This document shows, piece by piece, positions 40,983-44,757 of a DNA stretch of 58,429 bases (position 1 is its first letter; each line of letters begins with the position of its first letter). A program made the translations under genes and the position numbers. Origin of the DNA: Bacteroidota bacterium. Its GTDB lineage: Bacteria > Bacteroidota > Ignavibacteria > Ignavibacteriales > Ignavibacteriaceae. The DNA lies in assembly GCA_021777835.1 (NCBI GenBank), contig JAJYDC010000017.1:1-58429 (forward strand), written 5' to 3'. The notes under the pieces were generated by a model. The model did not search any database and was not told the origin of the DNA. It saw nothing but the letters and a program-made list of their open reading frames with translations.

Positions 40983-41813
40983 TTAATTTACAGAGCTATT
41001 TACAACTACTTTCACAGCTATGCATTCATAGAGCGAACGATTTGATTGGTAATCAGACGAACTTCGCTTTATAATACGCCAACCATTAAATTCAAATACT
41101 CCCTTTGTTATAATTGATTCTATCAACTGTGATGAACTTGCCTTTCCACTTGCCTGTGCGATTAGCAAATTATCCAAAAGCTCAACAAGCTCTTTGTTTT
41201 GAGATAGGATTATTTGTTTTTGATTTAGACCTGTAACAATTGTGACTGGTTCGATTATTATGTTTGAAAGCTGTTGAATCTTTTGTGCTGCTGAAGTTTC
41301 GGCTGCTTCTAATTGTATCATTCTAGCTCTTGAATCAGATCCAACTAATCCTTTAGATGCACTCACCAAATCAAGCAGATAATTTCTTACTGAATTCAAA
41401 TCAGGCGCTTTTCGAATTGCATCTAAATTATTCCTGTTTTGAAGAGTTTTTGCTAGTATTGATATTTCCTTTAAATAATGGTTCCTTTGATTGTCAGGCA
41501 CAAGATACATTATCACTATATGAACTGGAATATTATCCGGCGATCCATAATCTATCCCCGAAGGGCTCCAACCTACTGAGCAAATTAAATCTTCATCATA
41601 GGGTACCCTGGCATGCGGACAAGCAAAACTTTTACCCAATGCCGTGTTTGTATTCTTTTCTCTCGTTAGAACCAATCCTGCAACATCAGTCCCATTTGGG
41701 ACTGATGGAATTGCTTCAATAATATGCGCTAACAATTGAAGTGAATCGAATTTATCATTATCTGGCAGTTCAATTAATCGCCCCTCTTCCAATGCATCCA
41801 ACATTGTGTCCAT
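40983..41813 (-). CDS. PTS EIIA (type 2)-like protein next to MgtA
   Basis: 276 residues when started at MDTMLDALEEGR. An upstream in-frame ATG (41846) overlaps mgtA by 31 bases, but GGAGGA lies 6-9 bases before the chosen start, which begins 2 bases after the mgtA stop. Residues 1-150 are a PTS_EIIA_2 domain; the phosphorylatable histidine is H67 in ACPHARVPYDEDL. The C-terminal half (about 160-276) is a helical plus small beta domain I do not recognise. EIIA domains regulate transport and enzymes by phosphorylation. The position suggests it adjusts MgtA, but this is inference. No EI or HPr gene is in the window. Confidence 0.8.
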   Translation of the reverse strand: MDTMLDALEEGRLIELPDNDKFDSLQLLAHIIEAIPSVPNGTDVAGLVLTREKNTNTALGKSFACPHARVPYDEDLICSVGWSPSGIDYGSPDNIPVHIVIMYLVPDNQRNHYLKEISILAKTLQNRNNLDAIRKAPDLNSVRNYLLDLVSASKGLVGSDSRARMIQLEAAETSAAQKIQQLSNIIIEPVTIVTGLNQKQIILSQNKELVELLDNLLIAQASGKASSSQLIESIITKGVFEFNGWRIIKRSSSDYQSNRSLYECIAVKVVVNSSVN

Positions 41814-41815
41814 TG

Positions 41816-44470
41816 TTAGTCTCCTCCGTATTTGTTGAAGAACCATACTTTAACAATATGGGTTAGAACGCTATAAGTTAATAAGAATCCGAAAATCCAT
41901 GCCCAATAAATTTCTGGCAGTGGTACAAAACCAAACATTTTTGCAAATGGAGAATATGGCAGCCACGCTCCAATAAGCATTATACTTAGTGTCGTGAGCG
42001 TCATCGACAAGGAAGCTCTGCTTCCGAAAAACGGTATTCGTCTTGTGCGAATAATATGTACAATTAATGTTTGAGTTAACAAGGACTCAACAAACCAGCC
42101 AGTCTGAAATAATCTTTCCAAATGTTCTTTATAGGAACCAGTAGCAGTAAGGTATTTACTAGCACCAAAGAAAAACCACATCAAGGCAAATGTTGCATAG
42201 TCAAATATTGAACTAATAGGACCAATATAAATCATAAATCTTTTTATATTATCTATATTCCACTTGAGAGGTTTAACAACAAGCTCTTTATCAACATTAT
42301 CAGTAGGTATGCCTGTTTGCGAAAAATCGTACAATAAATTATTAAGCAAAATTTGAATAGGTAGCATTGGTAGAAAAGGAAACATATAACTTGCGCCAAC
42401 TACACTAAACATATTTCCGAAATTGGAGCTTGCGCCCATACGAATATATTTTACAATATTCGCAAATACTTTACGACCTTCAATTATGCCATCTTCAAGA
42501 ACTAATAAACTCTTTTCAAGAAGGACTATATCTGCTGCCTCTTTTGCTACATCAACTGCTGAGTCAACTGAAATTCCTACATCCGCAGCGCGCAGCGATG
42601 GCGAATCGTTTATTCCATCACCCATATACCCAACTACATGACCTGACTGACGAAGTGAGACTATAACATTTTCCTTTTGAAGCGGCGATAGTTTTGCAAA
42701 TATGTCAAACTCTTGTACAGTTTTAGAAAAATCCTCAGAAGACAATCGACTTAATTCATCTCCAGTAATAATACGGTCAACTTGTAAACCAACATCCTTG
42801 CATACTTTCTTTGTAACCAGAGAATTATCACCGGTTAATATTTTAACAATAACACCGGTTTTCTTCAGGCTCGCAATGGCTTCTGCAGCCGATTCTTTAG
42901 GCGGATCAAAAAATGCAATATAGCCCAGTAATATTAAATCCTTTTCGTCACTTACAGTAAAAGTCTCTTTTGAAGAAGGATATTCCCTATAAGCAATTGC
43001 AAGTACACGGTAGCCATTATTATTAAGTGTCTCTACTTCCTCGTAAAGATCATCGTGTATCATATTTATTAAAGGATAAATTTCATCGTCATCCTGGTAA
43101 TGCGTACACACCGAATAAATTTCTTCAACAGCACCTTTACAGATTAATACATGGTCTCCCTCATACTCAACTATAACAGACATTCTTCTTCTTTGAAAAT
43201 CAAATGGCAACTCATCTACTAGTCTACACTTGCCTTCAACATTTAATTCAATATGCGAAAGGACTGCTCTGTCTATTAAGTTTCTTAATCCAGTTTGGTA
43301 GAAGCTATTCAGATATGCATACTGAAGAACATCGCGGCTTTCCCTGCCGGTTATATCAACATTCTTTTCGAGTACAACTTTATCTTGAGTCAATGTGCCA
43401 GTCTTATCAGTACAAAGTATATCAATAGCGCCGAAGTTTTGAATTGACGATAGATTCTTTACAATAACCTTTTTCTTGGACATTGTTAATGCCCCCTTTG
43501 CAAGGTTTACTGTCACTATCATAGGTAACATTTCCGGAGTTAAACCTACAGCAATTGAAAGTCCAAACAGTAATGCTTCGATCCAATTACCCTTAGTCAA
43601 TGCAACAATAAAGAATACAGCTAAAACCATCATTAACATGAATCGGATCATTAACCATGTAAATGACTTTACACCCTTATCAAAACTTGTCTCAACCCGT
43701 TTCTCAGTCAACTTCTCAGAAATAGAGCCAAAGTATGTCCTCGTACCAGTATTAACAACTACTGCTCTAGCAGTGCCGCTAAGAACGTTGCTACCTTGAA
43801 AACATGCGTTCTGTAATTCAAATACAAATCCGCTTTTTAAATTCATCGCTTCGGCCTTTTTCTCAATAGGCATTGATTCGCCTGTTAGAACTGATTGGCT
43901 AACAAAGAAATCCTTTGAGGAAATTAAACGAAGATCAGCCGGAATTATGGAGCCTGCATGGAGCAGCACAATATCACCGGGAACAACTTCTGACATTGGA
44001 ATTTCAATTTCTTTACCGTCTCTAATTAATAACACATGCGATTGTACTCTTTTTCCAAGTGCTTCAACTGCCATTGTAGATCTATGATCCAATACATATG
44101 AAAGACCCACACTAAGAATAACCATCATACTAACAATAAATGTGGACTCAACATCACCTAATATGGCAGACACAATCGCAATAATAAGCAATTGAATTAC
44201 AAGCGGACTGCGGCATCTATTGAAGATATCACCCCAAAAACCAATTCTTTTGGAATGCGCTAGTTCATTATAACCGTATTCATCTAAGCGCGTTTCCGCT
44301 TCTTCAGGTGTCAGTCCTTTTATATTAGTATTTAACTTGCTAAGAAAATCTTGAAGATCAAGACTACATACATCGATAAGATGTCGCTCATTTTCAGAAA
44401 CCTGATGTGGAGACTTTGCTTCTTTTGTAAATGTAGATGAGGAAATTTTAGAGAATATTGAACGAGCCAT
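41816..44470 (-). CDS. mgtA: Magnesium-translocating P-type ATPase MgtA (P-IIIB)
   Basis: 884 residues, full length. TGES at 196-199, phosphorylation motif DKTGTLTQD with D355, hinge GDGINDSPSLRAADVGISVD and the P-IIIB-type C-terminal helices. It imports Mg2+ at low external Mg2+. The SD is GGGGAGGT with good spacing. A 20-codon leader peptide frame and a hairpin precede it (see 44571-44757). The EIIA-like gene follows 2 bases after its stop. Ppk1 ends 299 bases upstream on the same strand, but mgtA has its own promoter. Confidence 0.95.
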   Translation of the reverse strand: MARSIFSKISSSTFTKEAKSPHQVSENERHLIDVCSLDLQDFLSKLNTNIKGLTPEEAETRLDEYGYNELAHSKRIGFWGDIFNRCRSPLVIQLLIIAIVSAILGDVESTFIVSMMVILSVGLSYVLDHRSTMAVEALGKRVQSHVLLIRDGKEIEIPMSEVVPGDIVLLHAGSIIPADLRLISSKDFFVSQSVLTGESMPIEKKAEAMNLKSGFVFELQNACFQGSNVLSGTARAVVVNTGTRTYFGSISEKLTEKRVETSFDKGVKSFTWLMIRFMLMMVLAVFFIVALTKGNWIEALLFGLSIAVGLTPEMLPMIVTVNLAKGALTMSKKKVIVKNLSSIQNFGAIDILCTDKTGTLTQDKVVLEKNVDITGRESRDVLQYAYLNSFYQTGLRNLIDRAVLSHIELNVEGKCRLVDELPFDFQRRRMSVIVEYEGDHVLICKGAVEEIYSVCTHYQDDDEIYPLINMIHDDLYEEVETLNNNGYRVLAIAYREYPSSKETFTVSDEKDLILLGYIAFFDPPKESAAEAIASLKKTGVIVKILTGDNSLVTKKVCKDVGLQVDRIITGDELSRLSSEDFSKTVQEFDIFAKLSPLQKENVIVSLRQSGHVVGYMGDGINDSPSLRAADVGISVDSAVDVAKEAADIVLLEKSLLVLEDGIIEGRKVFANIVKYIRMGASSNFGNMFSVVGASYMFPFLPMLPIQILLNNLLYDFSQTGIPTDNVDKELVVKPLKWNIDNIKRFMIYIGPISSIFDYATFALMWFFFGASKYLTATGSYKEHLERLFQTGWFVESLLTQTLIVHIIRTRRIPFFGSRASLSMTLTTLSIMLIGAWLPYSPFAKMFGFVPLPEIYWAWIFGFLLTYSVLTHIVKVWFFNKYGGD

Positions 44471-44570
44471 TAATACCTCCCCTCATAAATTTCAAAACCA
44501 ATCGAGGTTAAATAAAATTGTGTCCTACTTAATGCAGTTAAATTAAAACTATTGAAGATATTTAATTTTA

Positions 44571-44611
44571 TCATTGGCACCGGAAATTTTTACCCTAGGG
44601 AAAGCCAATGA
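44571..44611 (-). promoter_or_regulatory. Hairpin in the mgtA leader
   Basis: TCATTGGC (44604-44611, read on the minus strand) pairs perfectly with GCCAATGA (44571-44578) across a 25-base loop that contains the palindrome CCCTAGGG. It lies between the leader peptide stop (44631) and the mgtA SD (44475-44484). It is the natural candidate for a translation-dependent switch or terminator; the following TAAAATTAAATATC is only weakly U-rich. Confidence 0.5.
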
Positions 44612-44630
44612 GAATATTTTGGAGGCAATC

Positions 44631-44693
44631 CTAAGGAAGGTTAAAGTAAAATATTAAATTATTGTTAGCGCCAGGTTCATCTGAATCAGGCAT
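44631..44693 (-). CDS. Candidate mgtA leader peptide (MgtL-like, acidic/proline-rich)
   Basis: A 20-codon frame, N-terminus MPDSDEPGANNN, then LIFYFNLP and TAG. The SD AAAGGAAAG is five to seven bases upstream. The frame starts about 27 bases after the predicted mgtA transcription start and ends 160 bases before mgtA. Its first eight residues have two Pro and four acidic residues. In E. coli, MgtL (starting MEPDPTP) uses such an acidic/proline stretch to destabilise translating ribosomes at low Mg2+ and so switch on mgtA. The same logic here is inferred from composition and position, not shown. No homologue was searched. Confidence 0.65.
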   Translation of the reverse strand: MPDSDEPGANNNLIFYFNLP

Positions 44694-44726
44694 TTTCTTT
44701 CCTTTTAGTTATTAATAATTATATTG

Positions 44727-44757
44727 TAAAAATAATTTTTATTAGTTATTAATCAAA
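44727..44757 (-). promoter_or_regulatory. Predicted promoter of the mgtA leader and mgtA
   Basis: On the minus strand TTTG (44754-44757), a 19-base spacer and TATTTTTA (44727-44734), one base from the consensus TTTG-N19-TAnnTTTG. It lies after the ppk stop (44770) and predicts a start near 44720, so the leader peptide frame begins in the first 30 bases of the transcript. Confidence 0.6.

Follow-up and report, generated by a model that had tools for sequence, protein, structure and literature searches.

A putative ribosome-read leader switch ahead of magnesium transporter genes in Ignavibacteria-type genomes

We propose that magnesium import is controlled by a cis-acting switch that is read by the translating ribosome and conserved in Ignavibacteria-type genomes, a reading to which we assign a probability of about two in three. 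The window (the whole stretch of DNA analysed, 58,429 nucleotides) carries one copy, and the studied set comprises 30 loci, 24 before mgtA and 6 before mgtE. The mRNA would start shortly before a leader of 17-27 codons with an acidic/proline start (consensus MxDSDEPGA). With plentiful Mg2+, the ribosome would reach the leader stop codon and cover the 5' arm of a hairpin, A, so that a second hairpin, B, would form and bury the start of mgtE or, before mgtA, the start of a second short frame, ORF2. With scarce Mg2+, the ribosome would be destabilised and would abort (or pause) on the DSDEPG codons, far short of hairpin A; this hairpin, the first to form during transcription, would then capture the strand needed by B, and expression would be on. 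The sequences themselves show the conserved leader frame (ORF1), amino-acid-level selection at its start, a pair of hairpins with a strand in common, and the distances between these parts. Abortion at the motif, the Mg2+ response, the kinetic trapping of A and the route of output at mgtA are inferred; Mg2+ is taken as the signal because both controlled genes encode Mg2+ transporters.

A short, Shine-Dalgarno-led frame before mgtA had been proposed in the initial annotation, which gave no strand. The frame is borne out at 44693-44631 on the minus strand, with the N-terminus MPDSDEPG (Table 1), and the plus strand at 44631-44693 holds no such frame. The order along the minus strand is the end of a polyphosphate kinase gene, a putative promoter, ORF1, two alternative hairpins, ORF2 and mgtA, with 160 nt between the end of the ORF1 stop codon and the mgtA ATG (44470). 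The mgtA product was identified by its score of 1106 bits against TIGR01524 (Mg-translocating P-type ATPase; cut-off 610.75). The polyphosphate kinase gene (46899-44770, minus) lies immediately upstream of the leader, and the ppk-leader-mgtA order seems to be kept, because short frames of the form MNHxxK..., like the polyphosphate kinase C-terminus, precede the leader in five other loci (L002, L007, L009, L014 and L018). A gene at 40983-41846, whose product has a PtsN/EIIA-like domain (55 bits against TIGR00848, under the cut-off of 103.5), shares about 30 bases with the 3' end of mgtA. In the host genome, rated 98% complete, MgtE was absent at E 1e-40 and CorA at E 0.001; MgtA may therefore be the main recognised Mg2+ importer there.

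Table 1. Positions of the leader, its predicted RNA stems and neighbouring features in the window
Feature	Position	Strand	Basis
Possible -33 element, TTTG	44754..44757	-	Bacteroidota-type consensus
Possible -7 element, TATTTTTA (TAnnTTTG, 1 mismatch)	44727..44734	-	perfect form in 17/30 loci
Shine-Dalgarno region of leader, AAAGGAAAG	44697..44705	-	
Leader ORF1, MPDSDEPGANNNLIFYFNLP, then stop	44631..44693	-	sequence, orthologue comparison
DSDEPG motif, codons 3-8, proposed abortion site	44670..44687	-	function inferred
Stem A, 5' arm CCTTAGGATTGCC, overlaps ORF1 stop	44624..44636	-	
Stem B, 5' arm TCATTGGC, bases in common with stem A 3' arm	44604..44611	-	
Stem A, 3' arm GGCTTTCCCTAGGG	44593..44606	-	
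Stem B, 3' arm GCCAATGA, contains ORF2 start codon	44571..44578	-	
ORF2 (34 codons); its TAA stop and the mgtA start have one base in common	44470..44574	-	
Shine-Dalgarno region of mgtA, GAGGGGAGG	44476..44484	-	
mgtA, Mg2+-translocating P-type ATPase, 884 aa	41816..44470	-	TIGR01524

To assess conservation, mgtA relatives were collected by protein alone from 59 genomes, and the orthologue set consisted of the 15 loci (the window included) whose alignment started at residue 1 with at least 74% identity. A frame of the form M[PRQ]DSDEPG[A/T] was present in 13 of the 15, with its ATG 216-266 nt before mgtA; one orthologue (L008) is undecidable, with only 134 nt of upstream sequence, and one (L013) has no leader upstream. 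This recurrence among orthologues found via the pump protein alone goes beyond chance and confirms ORF1 as a real frame. The pattern and covariance sets described below enrich for the motif by construction, and 13/15 is the unbiased figure. The more distant mgtA genes at L015 and L017 have no leader upstream. Another distant gene, L016 (G034:C153; 53% identical), is preceded by a frame MDDPGGEKCSAL... (MDDPGGEKCSALNGVSSIVSIYDIRNSM behind CCGGAG), possibly an unrelated acidic/proline leader.

Across the 13 leaders, codons 3-9 differ pairwise by 149 synonymous versus 22 non-synonymous changes, the latter stemming from Ala/Thr at codon 9, whereas codons 10-16 differ by 28 synonymous versus 450 non-synonymous changes. 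This contrast argues for selection on the amino acids of the peptide start and scarcely on the remainder; conservation is confined to roughly the nine N-terminal residues, and the rest of the peptide (roughly half or more) is variable. An acidic residue followed by proline occurs in 28 of the 30 peptides, the exceptions being L148 and L219. By the initial annotation, a frame or start that was not conserved in close relatives would have counted as refutation, and a search for synonymous substitution bias was suggested. The idea passed this test: the frame, the start, the acidic/proline N-terminus and the hairpin distance are all kept in relatives, and synonymous turnover is found inside the motif.

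Further loci were gathered by a degenerate pattern search, a covariance search and reading of mgtA upstream regions. The pattern search over species genomes returned 51 loci, in records from Stygiobacter, Melioribacter, Ignavibacterium, Ignavibacteria, Ignavibacteriales and "Bacteroidetes bacterium" bins; 21 were short leaders (11 on contigs already found by the mgtA protein search, 10 new). The other 30 were dropped as long or far-upstream-open frames, or (L045 and L064) as short frames with no recognised Mg2+ transporter adjoining. Two Ignavibacterium loci, L070 and L080, have mgtE immediately behind the leader (397 and 401 bits to TIGR00400, which has a cut-off of 232.75), and mgtE proteins at cassette loci score 378-401 bits. 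MgtE is unrelated to the P-type ATPase MgtA; since the cassette precedes this gene too, it is tied to Mg2+ and not to mgtA alone.

The covariance model was built from 15 leaders and used to scan 395 genomes of the phylum and 391 of the class (overlapping sets); it recovered known loci as well as new ones. One scan gave 5 strong matches (E 7e-8 or better) plus G183, while its matches in G214, G047 and G038 were judged noise on reading. In the other, a Mg2+ transporter lies behind the match in 17 of the 18 genomes that have one; the exception, G375, was likewise judged noise. The new mgtE leaders are diverged (MPDSKEPGA in L200, MHSQDEPGA in L202, MSDSDEPDA in L213 and the motif-less MKESSSYIN in L219), and the adjoining mgtE genes are all above the TIGR00400 cut-off. 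Before mgtA, the covariance search added MTGSDEPGA (L216) and MNDSDDPGA (L217), and reading of upstream regions added MSDSDESGPD (L148), in which the acidic/proline start is rearranged. The partial mgtA proteins at these three loci match TIGR01524 best (507-517 bits), scores that fall under the whole-protein cut-off because the protein stretches are cut. No clear Shine-Dalgarno sequence precedes the leaders of L217 and L219, and extra in-frame ATGs lie just upstream of the leader in L007, L010 and L202.

In the class, mgtE is present in 178 of 245 genomes. None of the first 40 mgtE upstream regions of the class list carried a Shine-Dalgarno-led leader of this kind. This survey is partial: two regions were merely 149-170 nt long, the genomes with later-found mgtE leaders (G048 and G227) were not included, and a leader without the motif, like that of L219, would escape the filter. 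One match without a Shine-Dalgarno sequence (L103) looks like chance. Among 40 mgtA upstream regions (of 60 phylum places), L148 and L144 were plausible and L149 looks like chance.

The hairpins that such a mechanism requires, mutually exclusive ones, are present in these leaders, although only as predictions. When the leader was cut just before the next Shine-Dalgarno sequence, inspection of the folds showed hairpin A at all 24 loci (mean z -2.8), least strongly at L009 (z -0.7), and it formed in the 6 added loci too. Stem A starts 50-61 nt after the leader ATG (mean 55.7, sd 3.0, 24 loci; 48-64 nt across all 30), and between 20 nt before and 3 nt after the end of the stop codon. The footprint of a ribosome at the stop codon would cover the base of A; that of a ribosome at codons 6-8 would not. 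With the 5' arm of A masked, hairpin B folded (mean z -3.3), its 3' arm carrying the start region that follows, which belongs to mgtE itself at the 6 mgtE loci and to ORF2 at the mgtA loci. The partners of B lie within the A 3' arm in 23 of 24 loci, the exception being L005, in its minimum-energy fold. The strand common to A and B in the main group is CATTGGTTCATCTCC against GGAGGTGACAATG and thus resembles the anti-Shine-Dalgarno end of 16S rRNA.

RNAalifold on automatic alignments found no common structure, because register and loop length vary among loci, and swap tests and fixed-structure counts were therefore used instead. In the swap test, which is column-free, cognate arms over the 30 loci paired at -19.7 versus -13.4 kcal/mol for swapped arms (A) and at -18.3 versus -14.4 kcal/mol (B), with 0 of 10,000 permutations reaching the cognate value in either stem; for 7 loci under 70% identity the counts were 2/10,000 (A) and 19/10,000 (B), and the strictest de-replication left 2 loci, too few to carry weight. 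The cognate partner ranked first in only 7/24 loci (A) and 3/24 (B), as would be the case if many arms were near-interchangeable among relatives. In the fixed-structure counts over 15 loci, 91.2% of stem B cells were paired versus 40-67% when slid, and covariation was 0.171 versus 0.121, the former value being reached by 1 of 500 shuffles. For stem A in the same loci, 77.3% of cells were paired versus 34-67% when slid, and column covariation did not rise above shuffles (225/500); stem A shows one-base register slips between loci, and its second register was left out of the counts. For the full leader, 15 of the 24 minimum-energy folds, that of the window included, were read as B and not as A, and the openness of the start region averages just 0.26, versus 0.14 with the A 5' arm masked (higher in 22/24). 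The ON state must therefore depend on A being the first to fold. Attenuation by an intrinsic terminator was rejected: none lies between leader and mgtA, and the sole terminator-like site on the minus strand is inside mgtA.

Before mgtA, including in the window, the predicted stem B covers the start of ORF2 rather than that of mgtA. ORF2 is 15-60 codons long across loci; it runs into the mgtA start at 7 of the 20 loci measured (L001, L002, L068, L034, L051, L010 and L148), as TAATG in the window, and ends 11-86 nt before mgtA in the other 13 (the measurement leaves out L052, unresolved by the script, and L216). Translational coupling from ORF2 to mgtA is likely in the window. Some relatives must use a different output route: in L004 and L217 the start codon of ORF2 is gone while a long stem B remains. 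These two loci would suit a variant of the main reading in which output at mgtA runs by Rho-dependent termination or mRNA stability and not by ORF2 coupling. One description of MgtL, in the part of PMC11282234 available, has it act via Rho, and the accessible text of PMC12810186 describes a Mycobacterium tuberculosis M-box at which Rho termination is combined with the sequestering of a small ORF; for E. coli mgtA, the portion of PMC11552253 consulted reports no evidence of Rho termination. We regard the variant as possible though on the unlikely side, given that stem B covers mgtE's own start region at the 6 mgtE loci and that ORF2 reaches the mgtA start at the overlapping loci, the window among them.

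A codon-level feature of the motif bears on a different signal. Codons 7-8 (44670-44675 in the window) are CCT GGC in 26 of 30 loci, though the search pattern left the third base of both codons free, while the neighbouring D, S, D and E codons change synonyms freely; in the long frames of the window, CCT makes up 0.38 of Pro codons and GGC 0.22 of Gly codons. This near-invariance is a codon-level constraint for which we have no explanation. It would suit charged-tRNA attenuation, in which the ribosome stalls at Pro7-Gly8 when prolyl- or glycyl-tRNA is scarce, stem A forms, and Mg2+ acts only indirectly; the geometry would serve a stall as well as an abortion. However, the acidic residues, which a tRNA sensor does not need, are kept through synonymous changes. 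Classical attenuators use runs of codons, and a single Pro and a single Gly codon would make a weak sensor. We consider this explanation rather improbable.

Little credence is likewise due to a direct Mg2+ riboswitch, in which the RNA itself would bind Mg2+ and shift between A and B, with ORF1 merely part of the platform. The alternative between A and B is inherent in the RNA, and direct RNA sensing at E. coli mgtA is still debated, to judge from the accessible part of PMC11552253. However, the best-conserved part of the leader is the coding start, at the amino-acid level, and Rfam searches of the window region and of L001, L070, L200 and L202 gave only weak unrelated matches and, in L070, a tRNA; no RNA family of the leader, the M-box included, was found in these regions. 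Action of the peptide in trans as a small protein, for example on MgtA or MgtE with the hairpins a separate matter, would fit an N-terminus conserved at the amino-acid level and has precedents in MgtR and MgtU, small regulatory peptides of Mg2+ transporters (PMC8092293, seen in part), but is very improbable, as just the first nine or so residues are kept and the ATG-stem A spacing is tight while the stop moves by 23 nt.

Several loci count against our preferred reading of a ribosome-read Mg2+ switch: L219 lacks an acidic/proline start, it is rearranged in L148, L004 and L217 have no ORF2 start, and L013 is leaderless. The absence of the cassette from the 40 mgtE upstream regions surveyed also speaks against it. 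At L219 (G336:C180), before mgtE, the leader reads MKESSSYINLENKYSIKKTTLRK, then stop, and both hairpins are kept; the motif may have been lost naturally, or this leader may answer to another signal.

Leader peptides that gauge Mg2+ via ribosome destabilisation have been described in Proteobacteria (PMC8092293, PMC11282234 and PMC11552253, each consulted in part). In the MgtL model, as given in the accessible portions of PMC11282234 and PMC11552253, mgtA is repressed when the leader is translated in full at high Mg2+, and the repression is lifted when ribosomes drop off at EPDP under low Mg2+. The initial annotation had inferred MgtL-like sensing here, and the inference holds in the sense that the leader may work like MgtL: as far as those texts describe MgtL of E. 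coli and Salmonella, both are short mgtA-leader ORFs with acidic residues and proline near the start and with alternative RNA structures, completed translation being the OFF state. It does not hold in the sense that the leader is MgtL; the motif is DSDEPG rather than EPDP, which occurs in 0 of 30 leader peptides, and no RNA family was found in the regions searched. Further features of the present cassette that set it apart from MgtL are a hairpin B that buries a start region, the occurrence before mgtE and the second short ORF before mgtA.

Salmonella mgtQ, in the available excerpt of PMC8092293, has acidic codons that impede translation and alternative stems that free the mgtB site. The present leader resembles it, on that account, in its early acidic codons (Asp2 and Glu5 in mgtQ), in mutually exclusive stems and in the freeing of a transporter ribosome-binding site. 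The last feature holds, by prediction, at the 6 mgtE loci. Unlike the present leader (17-27 codons, at the 5' end), mgtQ as described there has 8 codons and is intergenic (mgtC/mgtB), a location not shared by the window, where the neighbours are polyphosphate kinase and the PtsN-like gene; its stem 2:3 frees the site with a ribosome on region 1, whereas the present A must be ribosome-free, and the transporter families are others. The M. tuberculosis M-box with its uORF is likewise a Mg2+ switch that hides a short ORF's start upstream of the main gene, but its sensor, in the part of PMC12810186 seen, is an RNA aptamer and not a nascent peptide.

It is an even question whether the cassette is a transporter-independent Mg2+ device that arose in Ignavibacteria independently of MgtL and of MgtQ, joining a nascent peptide to an anti-Shine-Dalgarno/anti-anti-Shine-Dalgarno switch before both mgtA and mgtE. 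A literature search, which left subscription literature mostly uncovered, found no report of such a leader in this bacterial group or before mgtE; the earlier remark that no example was known in the phylum met no counterexample, which does not prove that none exists. With a conserved peptide of unrelated sequence in another phylum, placed before Mg2+ transporters of two unrelated families, the principle would become general and open to direct testing. If the reading is true, mgtE would come under leader-peptide control and ribosome stability would be a general bacterial gauge of Mg2+. The leaders would also offer a second natural sequence class for asking which nascent-chain features destabilise ribosomes, with the near-frozen CCT-GGC codons and the motif-less relative L219 as built-in contrasts.

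In another Bacteroidota family, L144/L176 (G412:C7) has a Shine-Dalgarno-led frame MNDPDSCGDKC... (33 aa) before mgtA, followed by a second Shine-Dalgarno-led short ORF before whose start a GGTTC/GAACC hairpin folds; an A-like stem is visible by eye only and is absent from the minimum-energy fold. The motif occurs at 21 places in 81 genomes of that family, and among genomes with a known mgtA contig the starting locus alone coincides with it.

As for the promoter predicted in the initial annotation, a sigma70-like match is present (TTAATA-18-TACAAT at 44752-44723), but such matches are no more frequent than in shuffles (7 versus a shuffle mean of 8.1), and a sigma70-type promoter was rejected as support. 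The Bacteroidota-type promoter consensus is TAnnTTTG with an upstream TTTG, and an element of this type fits better, with TTTG 19 nt upstream of the possible -7 element. A perfect TANNTTTG lies 18-60 nt ahead of the leader in 17 of the 30 loci, whereas 300 mononucleotide shuffles averaged 1.5 such loci, with 5 at most.
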